Shown here: positions 22,701 to 35,803 of the stretch, one piece after another | Layout: the number at the start of each line of letters is the position of its first letter | How positions within the stretch are numbered: the first letter of the stretch is position 1 | Source of the DNA: Aporrectodea caliginosa | Taxonomy: Eukaryota > Annelida > Clitellata > Crassiclitellata > Lumbricidae | NCBI GenBank assembly: GCA_020284085.1 | Contig: JACEVL010000461.1 | Location: 590,001 to 654,000, forward strand | DNA length: 64,000 bases | Reading direction: 5' to 3' | Translations under genes and position numbers: made by a program | The notes under the pieces: model-generated | The model's input: the letters and a program-made list of their open reading frames with translations, nothing else | What the model was told of the DNA's origin: nothing | Databases searched by the model: none

Positions 22701-23658
22701 TGGTATCCAGTATCTATTTACGTGAAAAATTATTTCGATCAATCCAGCTTCTATTTCAAAACAGGAATGCCTTAATCAATCTCAATTCCATTTAGAGAAA
22801 CAGTTTTTTTTTCAGCAATCCAGCTTCCATTTTAAAGTGACAATATCAAATAAATTCGGCCAAATGTCTGTAGACAAAGTGTTCATTCATTCATTCATTC
22901 ATTCATTCATTCATTCATTCATTCATTCATTCATTCATTCATTCATTCATTCATTCTTTCATTCAGAGGACTTATATAGCGCCCCTATATAAGTGTTGCA
23001 GACGAAACGTCTTTAGACGAATTGTCGTGACACTACGCTGCATTCCGATAACCCTGTGTGAAAGACAGCCATTAATTATTATTATTAACCGACAGTTTGG
23101 CGAAGAATCTGCCTGGTGGCTGATGTAGGTTACGTCACTTCGGAGACCATATAACCAGCATCAATGAATCCGAGATTTTTCTGTCACTTTTGGATTAAAT
23201 TGACCGTGAATCGTGTGAATCTGGTGCTCTACTCCTTGAGAACAAAAAATATCGAGAACAACCAAACTGTAATAGGTAGACTAATTAAGAAATTAATTTA
23301 GCTAGCGACACACCGAGTCGCTCGTAGATTATCACTCGGGCACGCACAGAACCACATTTGCTCTTCAGCCGTGATCCCTTTTCTTAGACACTTAACAAGA
23401 ACAAGGTTGCGTGTCATTCCACAAGCAGAGAGAGAGAGAGATACCAATTTAATCTAAAACCCAGAGACTGCTCAAATTACACCAGCAAACTGTTACATGA
23501 ATGTTTTGGTTTTTGTTTGTGCAGAACTGGATGCAGTGCAGAGACAAAAGCGCGGTTTGTGCACTAGTTGTTATTCATACACGTCTTACTGCAGGTATAC
23601 AGGCTGCTACTTTTGCTGGTGTCGGAGAAACCCTTGCTTCGTAATATGTTTAGCATAA
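13716..23658 (+). CDS. BRICHOS-domain precursor of an 8-Cys secreted peptide, copy A (6 exons)
   Basis: Six coding exons joined by GT-AG introns (13716-13784, 15403-15546, 17533-17655, 18856-18975, 21645-21777, 23525-23658) give a 240-residue type II membrane protein. Order: short cytosolic tail (1-36), one hydrophobic anchor (about 37-62), BRICHOS domain (about 72-195) with its two expected cysteines near 127 and 182, N-glycosylation sequons near 133 and 154, a furin-type RQKR site (203-206), and a 34-residue C-terminal peptide with 8 Cys. Residues YTMNV, VVDDFN, NCYV and SVYWMYP align with the chondromodulin/tenomodulin BRICHOS fold. In known families BRICHOS chaperones a beta-prone peptide released by furin; annelid arenicin-type antimicrobial precursors share this plan. 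By inference the peptide is a host-defence effector. No break is seen in this copy. It converges on copy B, its near-mirror image. Confidence 0.88.
13785..15402 (+). other. Intron 1 of copy A
   Basis: Contains TGTCTTGTCTTGTC repeats near 13920, a block 14150-14520 conserved in the right arm (42370-42660), and GCGGCCTGCGGGCC repeats at 15290-15350. No transposon with clear ends. Confidence 0.6.
15403..15546 (+). CDS. BRICHOS copy A exon 2 (membrane anchor)
   Basis: 48 codons, phase 0 at both ends, acceptor GGACAG and donor GTAGTT. A basic stretch (RKPRNMKK) precedes about 26 hydrophobic residues (IVIIAVSAIL...VGMYLF), which by the positive-inside rule gives a type II signal-anchor. The encoded protein is identical in copy B. 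Confidence 0.88.
15925..16090. repeat. Direct repeat flanking a hAT fragment (first copy)
   Basis: The segment around CAACATACCTATCTGTCTGA is repeated at 17096-17240 in the same orientation with moderate divergence; the hAT fragment lies between. Confidence 0.8.
16152..17095 (-). mobile_element. hAT transposon fragment
   Basis: Left end AGGGGCGTAGCCAGG resembles the common hAT terminus. The 123-aa frame at 16392-16763 (-) carries LPVSSAECERGFIQMN and NDLLMIGINGPP, the hAT C-terminal dimerisation region. N-terminal and catalytic parts are missing. The G-rich/C-rich stretch at 17005-17090 may belong to a second nested end. Confidence 0.75.
17096..17240. repeat. Direct repeat flanking a hAT fragment (second copy)
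   Basis: Second copy of 15925-16090; see that entry. Confidence 0.8.
17533..17655 (+). CDS. BRICHOS copy A exon 3 (N-terminal part of BRICHOS)
   Basis: 41 codons, phase 0, acceptor CATGTAG, donor GTAGGA. It contains YTMNVDKDTK at the start and the MWVVDDFNR motif at the end. The Asp of this motif corresponds to the conserved BRICHOS aspartate. The protein sequence is identical in copy B. Confidence 0.88.
17700..17905. repeat. (ATC)n microsatellite
   Basis: ATC/ATG triplets, with many GATC-containing palindromic units; intron 3 of copy A. Open frames across it on both strands are artefacts. Confidence 0.95.
17906..18250 (+). mobile_element. Probable tRNA-related SINE next to (ATC)n
   Basis: B-box-like GGGTTCGTTTCC near 17968; absent from the right arm intron, where sequence passes from the 39.27 kb side directly. 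No clear 5' end. Beyond it, 18300-18600 is matched at 38.5-38.78 kb. Confidence 0.45.
18856..18975 (+). CDS. BRICHOS copy A exon 4 (middle of BRICHOS, first conserved Cys)
   Basis: 40 codons, phase 0, acceptor TATGTAG, donor GTCTGT. It carries the TGTNCYVVPL motif with the first BRICHOS cysteine and an NRT sequon. The last four residues differ from copy B (MEAK against IVVE), the only clustered change in the prodomain. Confidence 0.87.
19011..19699. mobile_element. MITE family M in intron 4 of copy A, split by a SINE
   Basis: 32-bp terminal inverted repeats of type GGTGAACGTGTAGTTTAGCG (19011) and its complement ending 19699; interior of ~35-bp AAGCTGGATTGATGAAAA tandem repeats, interrupted by SINE C. 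Absent from the 484-bp intron 4 of copy B. Confidence 0.82.
19205..19508 (-). mobile_element. tRNA-derived SINE family C with (ATT)n tail
   Basis: On -: head with TAGCGCATTGG (A box) and GAGTTCGAGCC (B box), body ending GCGCTTCAATAAAGAAAGG, then (ATT)n of about 100 bp (AAT on +). Inserted within a MITE M. Confidence 0.85.
19735..20060. other. Intron 4 sequence, nothing recognised
   Basis: (AAGT)n near 19733-19750, then AT-rich sequence with no coding or element signal. Confidence 0.5.
20065..20661 (-). mobile_element. Internally deleted Tc1/mariner element
   Basis: TA duplications at 20063-20064 and 20662-20663; inverted repeats CACGGTGGTTCAATGAAAAG at both ends. The interior on - keeps remnants of the transposase: QDIAPA-like, PDLNPVDYKVW-like, and a C-terminal WDGLDQRIIDDAVAQW-type segment in broken frame. 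Confidence 0.85.
20965..21535 (-). mobile_element. L2-like LINE 3' fragment
   Basis: Frames on - contain LQSVLNASALLI and RSSTTQHRNFVFVGPLAWDNFP, the standard C-terminal motifs of L2-type LINEs. Broken by a short insertion near 21270-21330 rich in TAGGCCTA. Confidence 0.75.
21645..21777 (+). CDS. BRICHOS copy A exon 5 (C-terminal part of BRICHOS)
   Basis: 44 codons plus one base (phase 1 donor GTGAGA), acceptor TTGTAG. It carries an NVT sequon, SFLGKKAKETCKG with the second BRICHOS cysteine, and SVYWMYPKCGD, matching the PIFWLKPTYP-like end of vertebrate BRICHOS domains. Confidence 0.88.
21780..22540. other. Intron 5 of copy A, conserved arm sequence
   Basis: 21780-22320 is matched at 36990-37470 in reverse; 22370-22530 at 36180-36440. 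The 111-aa open frame at 21921-22256 is not conserved as protein and is probably chance. Confidence 0.6.
22543..23034. mobile_element. MITE family T in intron 5 of copy A
   Basis: 9-bp target duplication ACGCTGCAT at 22534-22542 and 23035-23043. Ends are built from short tandem units of type TCGTCTACAGAC; the interior is the ~35-bp repeat in reverse (CATCAATCCAGCTTC). (ATTC)n at 22884-22965 plus an AGCGCCCCTATATAAG tail interrupts it. The right arm has an empty site near 36170. Confidence 0.85.
23525..23658 (+). CDS. BRICHOS copy A exon 6 (furin site and 8-Cys mature peptide)
   Basis: Acceptor GTGCAG. After a short linker comes VQRQKR, a furin/PC-type site, then a 34-residue tail rich in Tyr and Cys ending at TAA (23656-23658). 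Counted from the Gly after the cleavage site, cysteines are at 3, 6, 13, 18, 21, 23, 28 and 32. Net charge is about +3, from three Arg. Short, cationic, aromatic and disulfide-rich is typical of defence peptides; no activity can be read from sequence. Confidence 0.87.
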
Positions 23659-23659
23659 A

Positions 23660-24766
23660 CGACAGACAACATGAACGATCGGGATACAAACTTTCGATCC
23701 CTTATCCCATATAAACGCTTTCTGTTATAAACGTTGGCTAACTTTTGACTAATATCGCGCGAGTGAAGGAAAATTTATGAGTGACTTGTAAATGACGAAC
23801 AGCGGGAAACGATCGGATTCTAAGTGTCCAAAGGGTTCGGGTTCTCTTCAACAGATTCTTAAGTTGGTCGTTTGAACAAATTATATTGTTCGTTTTTTGG
23901 CTTGCTTTTAGATTAGTACGGTAGTGTGACTATAAGACTAAAATAATTTCATATTGCTGATTCGAATACTTAAACTCTATTGTCGATTAAGATAACGACA
24001 TTATGATGTCGTTGCCGTGATGCAAGAATCATTTCTACAAGAGGTTGCTTAATTATGCTTTCTAATATGCTAATAGCATTCCTTTTAAAGCCTGCTTGCA
24101 TTCTGCTATTGAATTCTGTTGTCTTTACAGCGTTTATATACCTATGTATACCTTTAAAAATAATTAGGCCTATGAATGACATCCTTATGAACGTCGTTGT
24201 TATATTAAAAAATAATTAATTTGGATCAATGATGTAGAGCATTTTGGTGAAACCCATTGCAAAGCGCTCTTTTGTAATCAGACTAATTGTTGATATTCAA
24301 GTTATATTATATGTTACCATAATCGACTTGAAATTGAAACTTACTGTTTATTTTTATTTACAATATACATTTTACTTAACATTGACATGCGTTATTGGTC
24401 TTCGATAGTAATTAATTATGTGCCGGAACAAAGATGAAGACTTTCGATTTCATAGTTTAATAAACGGTTTTGAATTGTGATAATTAACGTGTTCTTGGCT
24501 TAGGGCCTACAAGTTACAGAGCGTGTGACCCTACAACAAGAAATAGCCTGGTAGTTAGTAATCTAAGACTCCGCCACTTCTCATATACTCTGGCATTGCC
24601 ATTACCCTGCCTGGATGAAAGAGGATGGCAACGCTAGTGATCTTTGTAGTCACACAGTGCTGTTAAACTGAAAGTACCGTACTGCTACTTATAGTTAGCA
24701 GTAGTTAACTTGAGTTCTTGGTTTAATCTCTGGCGCAGGAACGGTCACGTACAAGCAGCACACATC
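23660..24766. other. 3' flank of BRICHOS copy A
   Basis: Conserved in reverse at 34.65-35.66 and parts of 28.66-30.98 kb. No gene; includes the 3' UTR. I see no AATAAA close to the stop in either copy. Confidence 0.55.
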
Positions 24767-35004: not shown

Positions 35005-35016
35005 ATAATATAACTT

Positions 35017-35666
35017 GAATATCAACAATTAGTCTGATTACAAAAGAGCGCTTTGCAATGGTTGTCACCAAAATGCTCTACATCATTGATCCAAATTAAT
35101 TAATTTTTTAATACAACAACGACGAAGGGTTCAAAGGGAAATCATTCATAATTATTTTTAAAGGTAGGCTATACATAGGCATATAAACGCTGTAAAGACA
35201 ACAGAATTCAATAGCAGAGTGAAAGCAGGCTGTAAAGGGAATGCTATTAGCATATTAGAAAGCATAATTAAGCAACCTCTTGTAGAAATGATTCTTGCAT
35301 CACGGCAACGACGCCATAATATCGATATCTTTAATTGACAATAACGTTTAAGTATTCGAATCAGCAAAATTAAATTCTTTTAGTCTTATAGTCACATTAC
35401 TACAAGTCTAAAAGTAAGCCAAAACGAACAATATAATTAAAATTTTGTTCAAACGACAAACTTAAGCATCTGGTGAAGAGACCGTGAACTCTTTGGACAC
35501 TTCGAATCTGATTGTTTCCCGCTGTCCGTCATTTACAAATTACTCATTTCCTTACAGTCGCGCGATATTAGTCAAAACGTTAGCGAACTTTTATAACATA
35601 AAATGTTTAAATGGCAGATATAATGGATCGAAAGTTCGTATCCCGATCGTTCATGTTGTCTGTCGT
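35017..35666. other. 3' flank of BRICHOS copy B
   Basis: Reverse complement of 23660-24300; no gene. Confidence 0.6.
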
Positions 35667-35803
35667 TTACCAACATGTATCATACCAAAAGCAGGGGTAA
35701 CTCCAGCAAATGCACCAGTAGCAGCTAGGATACAAGCAGTAATGCCAGTATGGGGAACAACGATTGCACAAACCGCGCTTTTGTCTCTGCACTGCATTCG
35801 GTT
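35667..35803 (-). CDS. BRICHOS copy B exon 6 (furin site and divergent 8-Cys peptide)
   Basis: The linker and VQRQKR site match copy A; then a 35-residue tail with cysteines at 3, 6, 13, 18, 21, 23, 28 and 34. It holds five Trp and six Tyr and is nearly neutral, unlike the Arg-bearing copy A peptide. The sequence after TAA (about 25 nt) is again identical to copy A, so the divergence is confined to the mature-peptide codons. Confidence 0.86.

Follow-up and report, generated by a model that had tools for sequence, protein, structure and literature searches.

Why should two duplicated genes keep one part of a precursor protein nearly constant while the peptide at its end differs at about half of its positions? 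The question is raised by a 64,000-nt stretch of earthworm DNA (Aporrectodea caliginosa, assembly GCA_020284085.1, contig JACEVL010000461.1, positions 590,001 to 654,000; hereafter the window), in which an earlier reading of the letters (hereafter the original prediction) had proposed two precursors, here called A and B, with a conserved BRICHOS prodomain and a hypervariable mature peptide of eight cysteines. Following this up computationally, we consider it probable that both genes encode chaperone precursors anchored in the membrane, from which host-defence peptides are released, and that selection diversifies their last exon, with some gene conversion of exon 6.

In self-BLAST the window aligns with itself as a diverged inverted duplication, with one BRICHOS gene per arm and a simple-repeat spacer between the arms near 27-28 kb. 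Genes A (+) and B (-) lie tail to tail and have six exons each, with AG acceptors at exons 2-6 and GT donors at exons 2-5 in both copies; exon 1 was located by tblastn with the exon-1 peptides of five relatives from public collections, P0001-P0005 (best E 8e-10). In the region C460:490001-754000, tblastn found no further full exon set besides A and B, and the remaining matches there were chance-like, the best being a Tyr-rich repeat (E=0.001). The A precursor has 240 residues and consists of a basic stub, a transmembrane stretch from residue 37, BRICHOS, the motif RQKR and a 34-residue peptide. That both genes encode BRICHOS precursors is confirmed by the Pfam profile PF04089 (BRICHOS), which scores 43.6 bits in A and 41.4 bits in B with a cut-off of 25. 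BRICHOS domains are defined by two conserved Cys and one conserved Asp. In 30 of 30 aligned sequences, C104, C159, D86 and D147 are invariant (numbering of the spliced B piece, domain 79-166); D86 or D147 could be that Asp.

The best 21-residue hydropathy window of exon 2 reaches 3.06 and, judged from its sequence, the precursor is membrane-anchored, with exons 1-2 forming a cytosolic stub and a transmembrane helix. With such an anchor, release of the peptide must come by cleavage. The secreted effector that had been proposed thus keeps its released-peptide plan with RQKR, but its precursor is held in the membrane. RQKR is a furin-type (dibasic) motif that precedes the C-terminal peptide in A and B and at which both precursors are presumably cut. 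The peptides that follow are GLCTSCYSYTSYCRYTGCYFCWCRRNPCFVICLA in A (34 aa) and GLCNRCSPYWHYCLYPSCYWCICWSYPCFWYDTCW in B (35 aa). As described originally, they share eight Cys in the spacing C-x2-C-x6-C-x4-C-x2-C-x-C-x4-C-x3/5-C and differ at about half of their positions (15 of 34 aligned residues identical), and one is cationic (A, 3 basic and 0 acidic residues, net +3) while the other is Trp-rich and nearly neutral (B, 1 basic and 1 acidic residue, net ~0, 5 Trp).

Divergence between A and B was counted on a single nucleotide alignment, with the Fisher test for mature codons against introns and with Nei-Gojobori (NG86) counts rounded to whole numbers for tests. Over exons 2-5, 7 of 173 residues differ, which is the number first reported, and 19 of 519 nt; these comprise 7 nonsynonymous changes over 405.7 sites versus 12 synonymous changes over 113.3 sites (p=8.5e-5; ratio of nonsynonymous to synonymous change, dN/dS, 0.15). 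Neutral evolution of one copy since the split would lead to ~21 nonsynonymous changes in these exons, compared with the 7 observed. Exons 2-5, which include the chaperone part, are significantly constrained by purifying selection. In the mature peptide 30 of 101 nt differ, versus 290 of 2364 (12.3%) in introns (p=4.8e-6), and the excess holds for nonsynonymous sites of the 28 ungapped mature codons (20/69 versus the same intron count, p=2e-4). On either side of the peptide the two genes are nearly identical, with 2 of 29 nt differing in exon 6 ahead of the mature part and 1 of the first 30 nt 3' of the stop codon, and the 3' flank as a whole differs at 48 of 627 nt. The near-identical flanks and the focus of change on the peptide codons had both been predicted; that exon 6 might vary no more than introns do, which the original prediction named as its own refutation, is contradicted by both tests.

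The comparison was extended to 28 pairs of eight genes, which share genes and are not independent. Intron 5 gave at least 363 aligned sites in 9 of the 28 pairs and 234 or fewer in the other 19. Among the nine, the proportion of nonsynonymous differences (pN) in the mature peptide exceeded intron divergence at p ~0.01 or lower in seven: A-B against all introns, and A-L028, B-L028, L024-L032, L024-L034, L023-L024 and L023-L034 against intron 5. The two pairs without an excess over intron 5 were L023-L032 (ratio 0.84) and L032-L034 (ratio 1.04). A similar pattern is seen between relative P0001 and the genome copy C422/L028, which are identical at 48 of 48 residues in exon 2 and 41 of 42 in exon 5, compared with 24 of 32 in the mature peptide (mature against exons 2+5, p=8e-5).

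A and B are part of a large family. The genome (1.098 Gb, 4544 contigs) was searched exon by exon with protein queries, and the counts are lower bounds: at least 67 copies of BRICHOS exon 5 at E<=1e-3 (71 listed), all 67 free of internal stops where they match, and at least 64 copies of the membrane exon (exon 2) at E<=0.01. Many copies are clustered, for example in C451, C721, C806, C397 and C16. The PF04089 profile itself found no match in the genome, probably because the domain is split across exons. Eighteen of the 67 copies, all of them among the 30 stronger loci, had their exon 6 read; those left unread are L025, L027, L029, L033, L035-L037, L040, L043, L046, L047, L050 and 37 weaker copies. 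Over the 18 copies the released peptide has 2, 4, 5, 6, 8, 10, 11 or 12 Cys. Ten copies carry short Tyr/Cys peptides (2, 4, 6 or 8 Cys; eight of these, A and B not included, are at least 20% Tyr), two carry short Cys-rich peptides (5 and 8 Cys), and six carry long peptides of 93-97 residues with 10-12 Cys. Two further Tyr/Cys peptides have eight Cys, GLCYRCYYYRYYCYNPYYCLCCWRIVCYWVYC of C422 and DICRSCRYEWEYCGGCLCCYNYVCYYWNC of C16, in spacings unlike that of A and B; the A/B spacing occurs in none of the other 16 exon-6 copies read, nor in the short tails of the relatives compared. Since the Cys number varies over the 18 copies, the eight-Cys scaffold is not fixed, and the A/B framework is one of several. 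In one copy, L034 (C451:397677-397790), the peptide extends beyond the usual stop into what is 3' untranslated region in its relatives and ends in RQTV.

Two protein searches of public collections, one of which scored the best 8000 candidates by shared words, yielded relatives P0001-P0072, whose tails were cut automatically by a simple rule. A BRICHOS end followed by a tail is present in 69 of the 72; the remaining three (P0029, P0030, P0072) lack a tail and resemble readings of exon 2 that continue into the intron. The tails hold 0-12 Cys and range in net charge from -8 to +6. Among ten chosen sequences (A, B, P0001-P0005, P0008-P0010), identity is 52-96% in the anchor-plus-BRICHOS part and 21-61% in the mature peptide, and among the six closest (A, B, P0001-P0004) it is 79-96% versus 21-54%. 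Where their size is stated, the relatives' contigs are 0.8-2.8 kb long with an uninterrupted coding frame in which exon 5 is joined to exon 6, and many are probably assembled transcripts. For the relatives, though not for A or B themselves, such short uninterrupted contigs suggest that exon 5 is joined to exon 6. Four relatives (P0014, P0021, P0024, P0069) have a released peptide without any Cys, and in P0005 (15/28) and P0008 (21/36) over half of the peptide is Tyr; Tyr and Cys codons differ by one G-A step.

An AlphaFold model of relative P0001, made with 28 sequences, has a mean predicted local distance difference test score (pLDDT) of 71 and a predicted template modelling score (pTM) of 0.48. 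It contains a helix at 34-73, BRICHOS strands and short helices between 81 and 197, a linker at 200-208 with pLDDT <50, and two strands at 212-225 and 228-241 with pLDDT 80-84. The eight-Cys peptide of this relative is thus predicted to be a long beta-hairpin that follows the membrane anchor and the BRICHOS domain. A phmmer search of PDB with the spliced B piece gave no match at E<=1, and the sole match of a 28-member profile in PDB, 8rnu (integral membrane protein 2B, E=0.33), was not used as evidence.

We propose that A and B arose as tail-to-tail duplicates within a large earthworm family of anchored BRICHOS precursors. Exons 1-2 would supply the short basic cytosolic stub and the transmembrane anchor, exons 3-5 the BRICHOS chaperone, and exon 6 alone the furin-type site RQKR and the released peptide. 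BRICHOS may hold the aggregation-prone Cys/Tyr/Trp-rich beta-hairpin while its disulfides form, after which proprotein cleavage would free the hairpin peptide, most likely as an antimicrobial or symbiont-controlling effector; by analogy, an antimicrobial function is the likeliest reading of the A and B peptides. The peptide exon would be driven to change by diversifying selection, over gene duplication and with some exon-6 conversion. A wider and more tentative idea, possible but not one we would yet favour, is that earthworms have a germline variable-cassette defence system, in which dozens of near-constant anchor-chaperone backbones each carry their own hypervariable single-exon peptide (Tyr/Cys hairpins, long forms with 10-12 Cys, short Cys-rich forms), exon 6 evolves faster than neutral DNA and is occasionally copied between backbones, and BRICHOS serves as a general folding adaptor. 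If this were true, very different disulfide peptides could evolve on one BRICHOS scaffold.

Several observations weigh against a selected peptide exon in two working defence genes. The NG86 dN/dS (omega) of the peptide is 1.09 for its first 28 codons and varies with the placement of gaps from 0.70 to 1.07 when all codons are counted. It does not clearly exceed 1, since the peptide is rich in silent differences too; the dN/dS of exons 2-5, with which exon 6 was to be compared as an originally suggested check, is 0.15. Between A and B the proportion of silent differences (pS) is 0.27-0.46 in the peptide versus 0.11 in exons 2-5, an excess that is not significant alone (4/15; p=0.10 versus introns, p=0.09 versus exons 2-5). 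Over the 28 pairs it is 0.34-1.17 in the mature part versus 0.11-0.38 in exon 5, and over four disjoint pairs the peptide differs in 11 of its 51 conserved two-fold codons, compared with 4 of 60 for exon 5 (p=0.022), although the well-aligned pairs L023-L032 (1/15) and L032-L034 (1/16) show no such excess. Such a rise in pS could stem from misaligned Tyr-rich stretches, from local hypermutation or from conversion. The intron yardstick of 12.3% was taken from alignable intron sites only and may understate neutral divergence. L023 and L031 share one 27-residue peptide, with 2 of 81 mature nt differing versus 104 of 591 (17.6%) in intron 5 and 10 of 129 in exon 5, a sign of either gene conversion of exon 6 or strong purifying selection. 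Tail and anchor-BRICHOS part are about equally similar in two wider pairs of relatives (P0004-P0009, 54/54%; P0005-P0008, 59/61%). Peptide B is neutral, unlike most antimicrobial peptides (AMPs), and A and B are known here from genomic sequence alone. The exon-1 frame of B is broken by a 7-nt deletion relative to A, and the donor after exon 4 of A is the weak GTCTGT, compared with GTGAGT in B; both lesions weaken the assumption that the two genes fully work, though an anchored B product could still arise from an ATG in exon 2 ahead of the membrane segment. The diversifying selection of the original prediction is thus supported in part, by the peptide change above introns and by the family of variants; the omega of ~0.7-1.1, the raised silent change and the peptide shared by L023 and L031 indicate that in its simple form it is not the sole process. 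As a separate observation, L023 and L031/L053 (C451) are candidates for exon-6 gene conversion.

The shared peptide and the raised silent change also speak for a rival that we regard as unlikely, namely that the A/B peptide difference was imported as one block by exon-6 conversion from another paralogue rather than built from selected point changes, and a conversion tract would be in keeping with the abrupt fall in divergence on either side of the peptide. However, the variable block runs from the fourth codon after RQKR to the stop codon, so its borders track function and not a random tract. Seven of the eight Cys line up with no gap needed, and A and B differ in only 2 of 12 conserved two-fold codons. 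No closer donor emerged among the eight matches of a DNA search for which the exon-6 region of A, but not that of B, served as query, with exon 6 read in 18 of the 67 copies; the best match after A and B was C422 at 73%, whose peptide matches A and B weakly (E 0.005 and 0.015). The function of the peptides has its own rival: they may serve in structure or signalling, as Tyr/Cys-rich components of mucus, cuticle or cocoons or as ligands of receptors. Very Tyr-rich close relatives (up to 21/36, P0008), the 14 of 69 tails with at least 20% Tyr, the 27 of 69 with a net charge of 0 or below and the neutral peptide B speak for this rival. Structural proteins seldom diversify in this way between close copies, which counts against that part of the idea. 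In its size, its peptide change above the intron level and its BRICHOS-furin-hairpin plan, the family instead resembles the antimicrobial precursors of polychaetes (PMC10745061, PMC6780910), and we judge a non-antimicrobial role rather improbable.

Two further readings were set aside on the divergence data. That one copy, probably B, is dying and its peptide exon drifting under relaxed constraint is in keeping with the exon-1 deletion in B and the weak exon-4 donor in A, but drift should not outpace introns, exons 2-5 are constrained in both copies, and all eight Cys, the cleavage site and the exon 2-6 reading frame are kept; we hold it to be very unlikely. An assembly artefact, with two alleles placed side by side in opposite orientation, is scarcely credible as the source of A and B: the inverted arrangement within one contig would suit it, yet the arms differ by several insertions, dozens of family copies lie on other contigs, and 12.3% is a high divergence of aligned introns for alleles.

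The coordinates of both genes and of the neighbouring features are collected below. The span given in the original prediction, 23590..35803, cuts into exon 6 of A (23525-23658), and exon 1 of either gene was not mentioned.

Features of the window (positions counted from its first nucleotide)
Feature	Position	Strand	Remarks
Inverted-duplication arm A	4599..26933	+	self-BLAST; pieces aligned to 60233-28350, mostly 79-96% identity
Inverted-duplication arm B	28350..60233	-	self-BLAST
Gene A exon 1, coding part	13716..13784	+	MPSLFKMTDAKNTAFETPVVITQ, putative cytosolic stub; phase-0 donor GTATAG
Gene A exon 2, basic stop and transmembrane helix	15403..15546	+	open frame, AG/GT borders
Gene A exon 3, linker and BRICHOS start	17533..17655	+	peptide identical in A and B
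Gene A exon 4, BRICHOS	18856..18975	+	weak donor GTCTGT
Gene A exon 5, C-terminal BRICHOS	21645..21777	+	PF04089 over residues 79-166 of spliced piece
Gene A exon 6, RQKR and 34-aa 8-Cys peptide	23525..23658	+	stop TAA
Mature peptide A, 8 Cys	23554..23655	+	3 basic, 0 acidic residues
Gene B exon 1 counterpart	45117..45178	-	7-nt deletion versus A; shifted frame, stop after 17 codons
Gene B exon 2	40090..40233	-	in-frame ATG (MKKIVII...), possible start
Gene B exon 3	39298..39420	-	
Gene B exon 4	38087..38206	-	donor GTGAGT
Gene B exon 5	37470..37602	-	one of the genome's exon-5 matches
Gene B exon 6, RQKR and 35-aa 8-Cys peptide	35667..35803	-	stop TAA
Mature peptide B, 8 Cys	35670..35774	-	5 Trp, net charge ~0
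Transposase-like open reading frame between arms	25153-25764	-	Tc1/mariner-like by eye; Pfam helix-turn-helix matches below cut-off
Reverse transcriptase RVT_1	29255-30058	+	113.5 bits; in LINE-like element at 29-30.8 kb
Retroelement-like frame, 512 aa, stop to stop	32838-34376	+	no Pfam match at E<=0.01
Frame of 217 aa, stop to stop	47544-48197	-	by eye, adenovirus-type cysteine protease of Maverick/Polinton; no Pfam match at E<=0.01

Flanking parts of the element that resembles a long interspersed nuclear element (LINE) recur inverted at 60337-61125 (60.3-61.1 kb) with 97% identity, which suggests that the element is probably younger than the inverted duplication.

The pattern of change recalls conotoxin precursors, in which a conserved pre/pro part and untranslated regions surround a hypervariable Cys-rich mature peptide; conotoxins have no BRICHOS, and the likeness to A and B is an analogy of evolutionary pattern only. 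Closer relatives in plan are the BRICHOS-AMPs of marine worms. Their N-terminal hydrophobic region has a counterpart in the hydropathy of exon 2 and in helix 34-73 of the P0001 model, and their dibasic/furin site followed by a C-terminal peptide has one, as a motif, in the RQKR of A and B. Such precursors are stated in PMC6780910 (2019) and PMC9756803 (2022) to be known only from polychaetes. This is a statement of range, not a structural criterion, and A. caliginosa as an earthworm lies outside it; among the papers listed by literature searches, which did not extend to subscription papers, no BRICHOS peptide from an earthworm appeared. The globins of the genome agree with an earthworm host: two globin exons (L055 and L057) score best against extracellular globins IV and III of PDB entries 1x9f/4v93 from Lumbricus terrestris (125.9 and 128.8 bits), above 4u8u from Glossoscolex (109.9 and 101 bits) and the remaining giant haemoglobins of annelids (at most 68.7 bits), and two more (L054 and L058) gave weak, uninformative matches to nerve haemoglobin and cytoglobin. 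According to PMC10745061, polychaete BRICHOS peptides kill bacteria, and Heteromastus filiformis has 13 HfBRI peptides (HfBRI-18 to -91) in nine families, five of them with transmembrane precursors; HfBRI-75 and -91 have no pronounced cationic charge and 11 Cys, and the Cys-rich AmIMP1/2 of Arenicola are mentioned as well. A and B resemble HfBRI in BRICHOS, the dibasic/furin site, the variable C-terminal peptide and, for five of the 13, the transmembrane precursor, but the earthworm has dozens of gene copies where the polychaete has 13 transcripts (HfBRI compared by description, not by alignment). In the sections of that paper examined, no selection test on HfBRI peptides was found.

The A/B precursors also share the chaperone-peptide plan with arenicin, capitellacin and nicomicin, all from polychaetes, in most of which the peptide is a beta-hairpin with disulfides (PMC10745061, PMC6780910 and PMC9756803). 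The hairpins of arenicin, alvinellacin and capitellacin have one or two disulfides (2 or 4 Cys), unlike the eight Cys of A and B. The Cys scaffold that the original prediction did not recognise indeed has no described counterpart, as an 8-Cys scaffold of 34-35 aa among BRICHOS peptides, in the sections examined of PMC10745061 and the other papers, but it is not conserved within its own family (2-12 Cys over 18 copies). Between marine annelid species the AMP part is without homology while BRICHOS is relatively conserved (PMC6780910), so this contrast is already known between species; what is new is its measurement against introns between duplicates of one genome. A multigene parallel is preproalvinellacin of Alvinella, for which PMC5431198 reports at least six genes shaped by duplication, intergenic recombination and selection, with alvinellacin identical between paralogues while BRICHOS diversifies. 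The earthworm family shows the opposite, with the chaperone part conserved and the peptide diversifying. If our reading is right, BRICHOS peptide precursors also occur outside the marine polychaetes, as a large multigene family of an earthworm. Soil animals that live among dense microbes would then be a source of unusual Tyr/Cys/Trp-rich peptides, and the family would make it practicable to test how a single chaperone copes with many disulfide scaffolds. Selection would then act on the peptide with the chaperone constant, the reverse of alvinellacin, which in the literature examined is the one BRICHOS-AMP family with a selection study.

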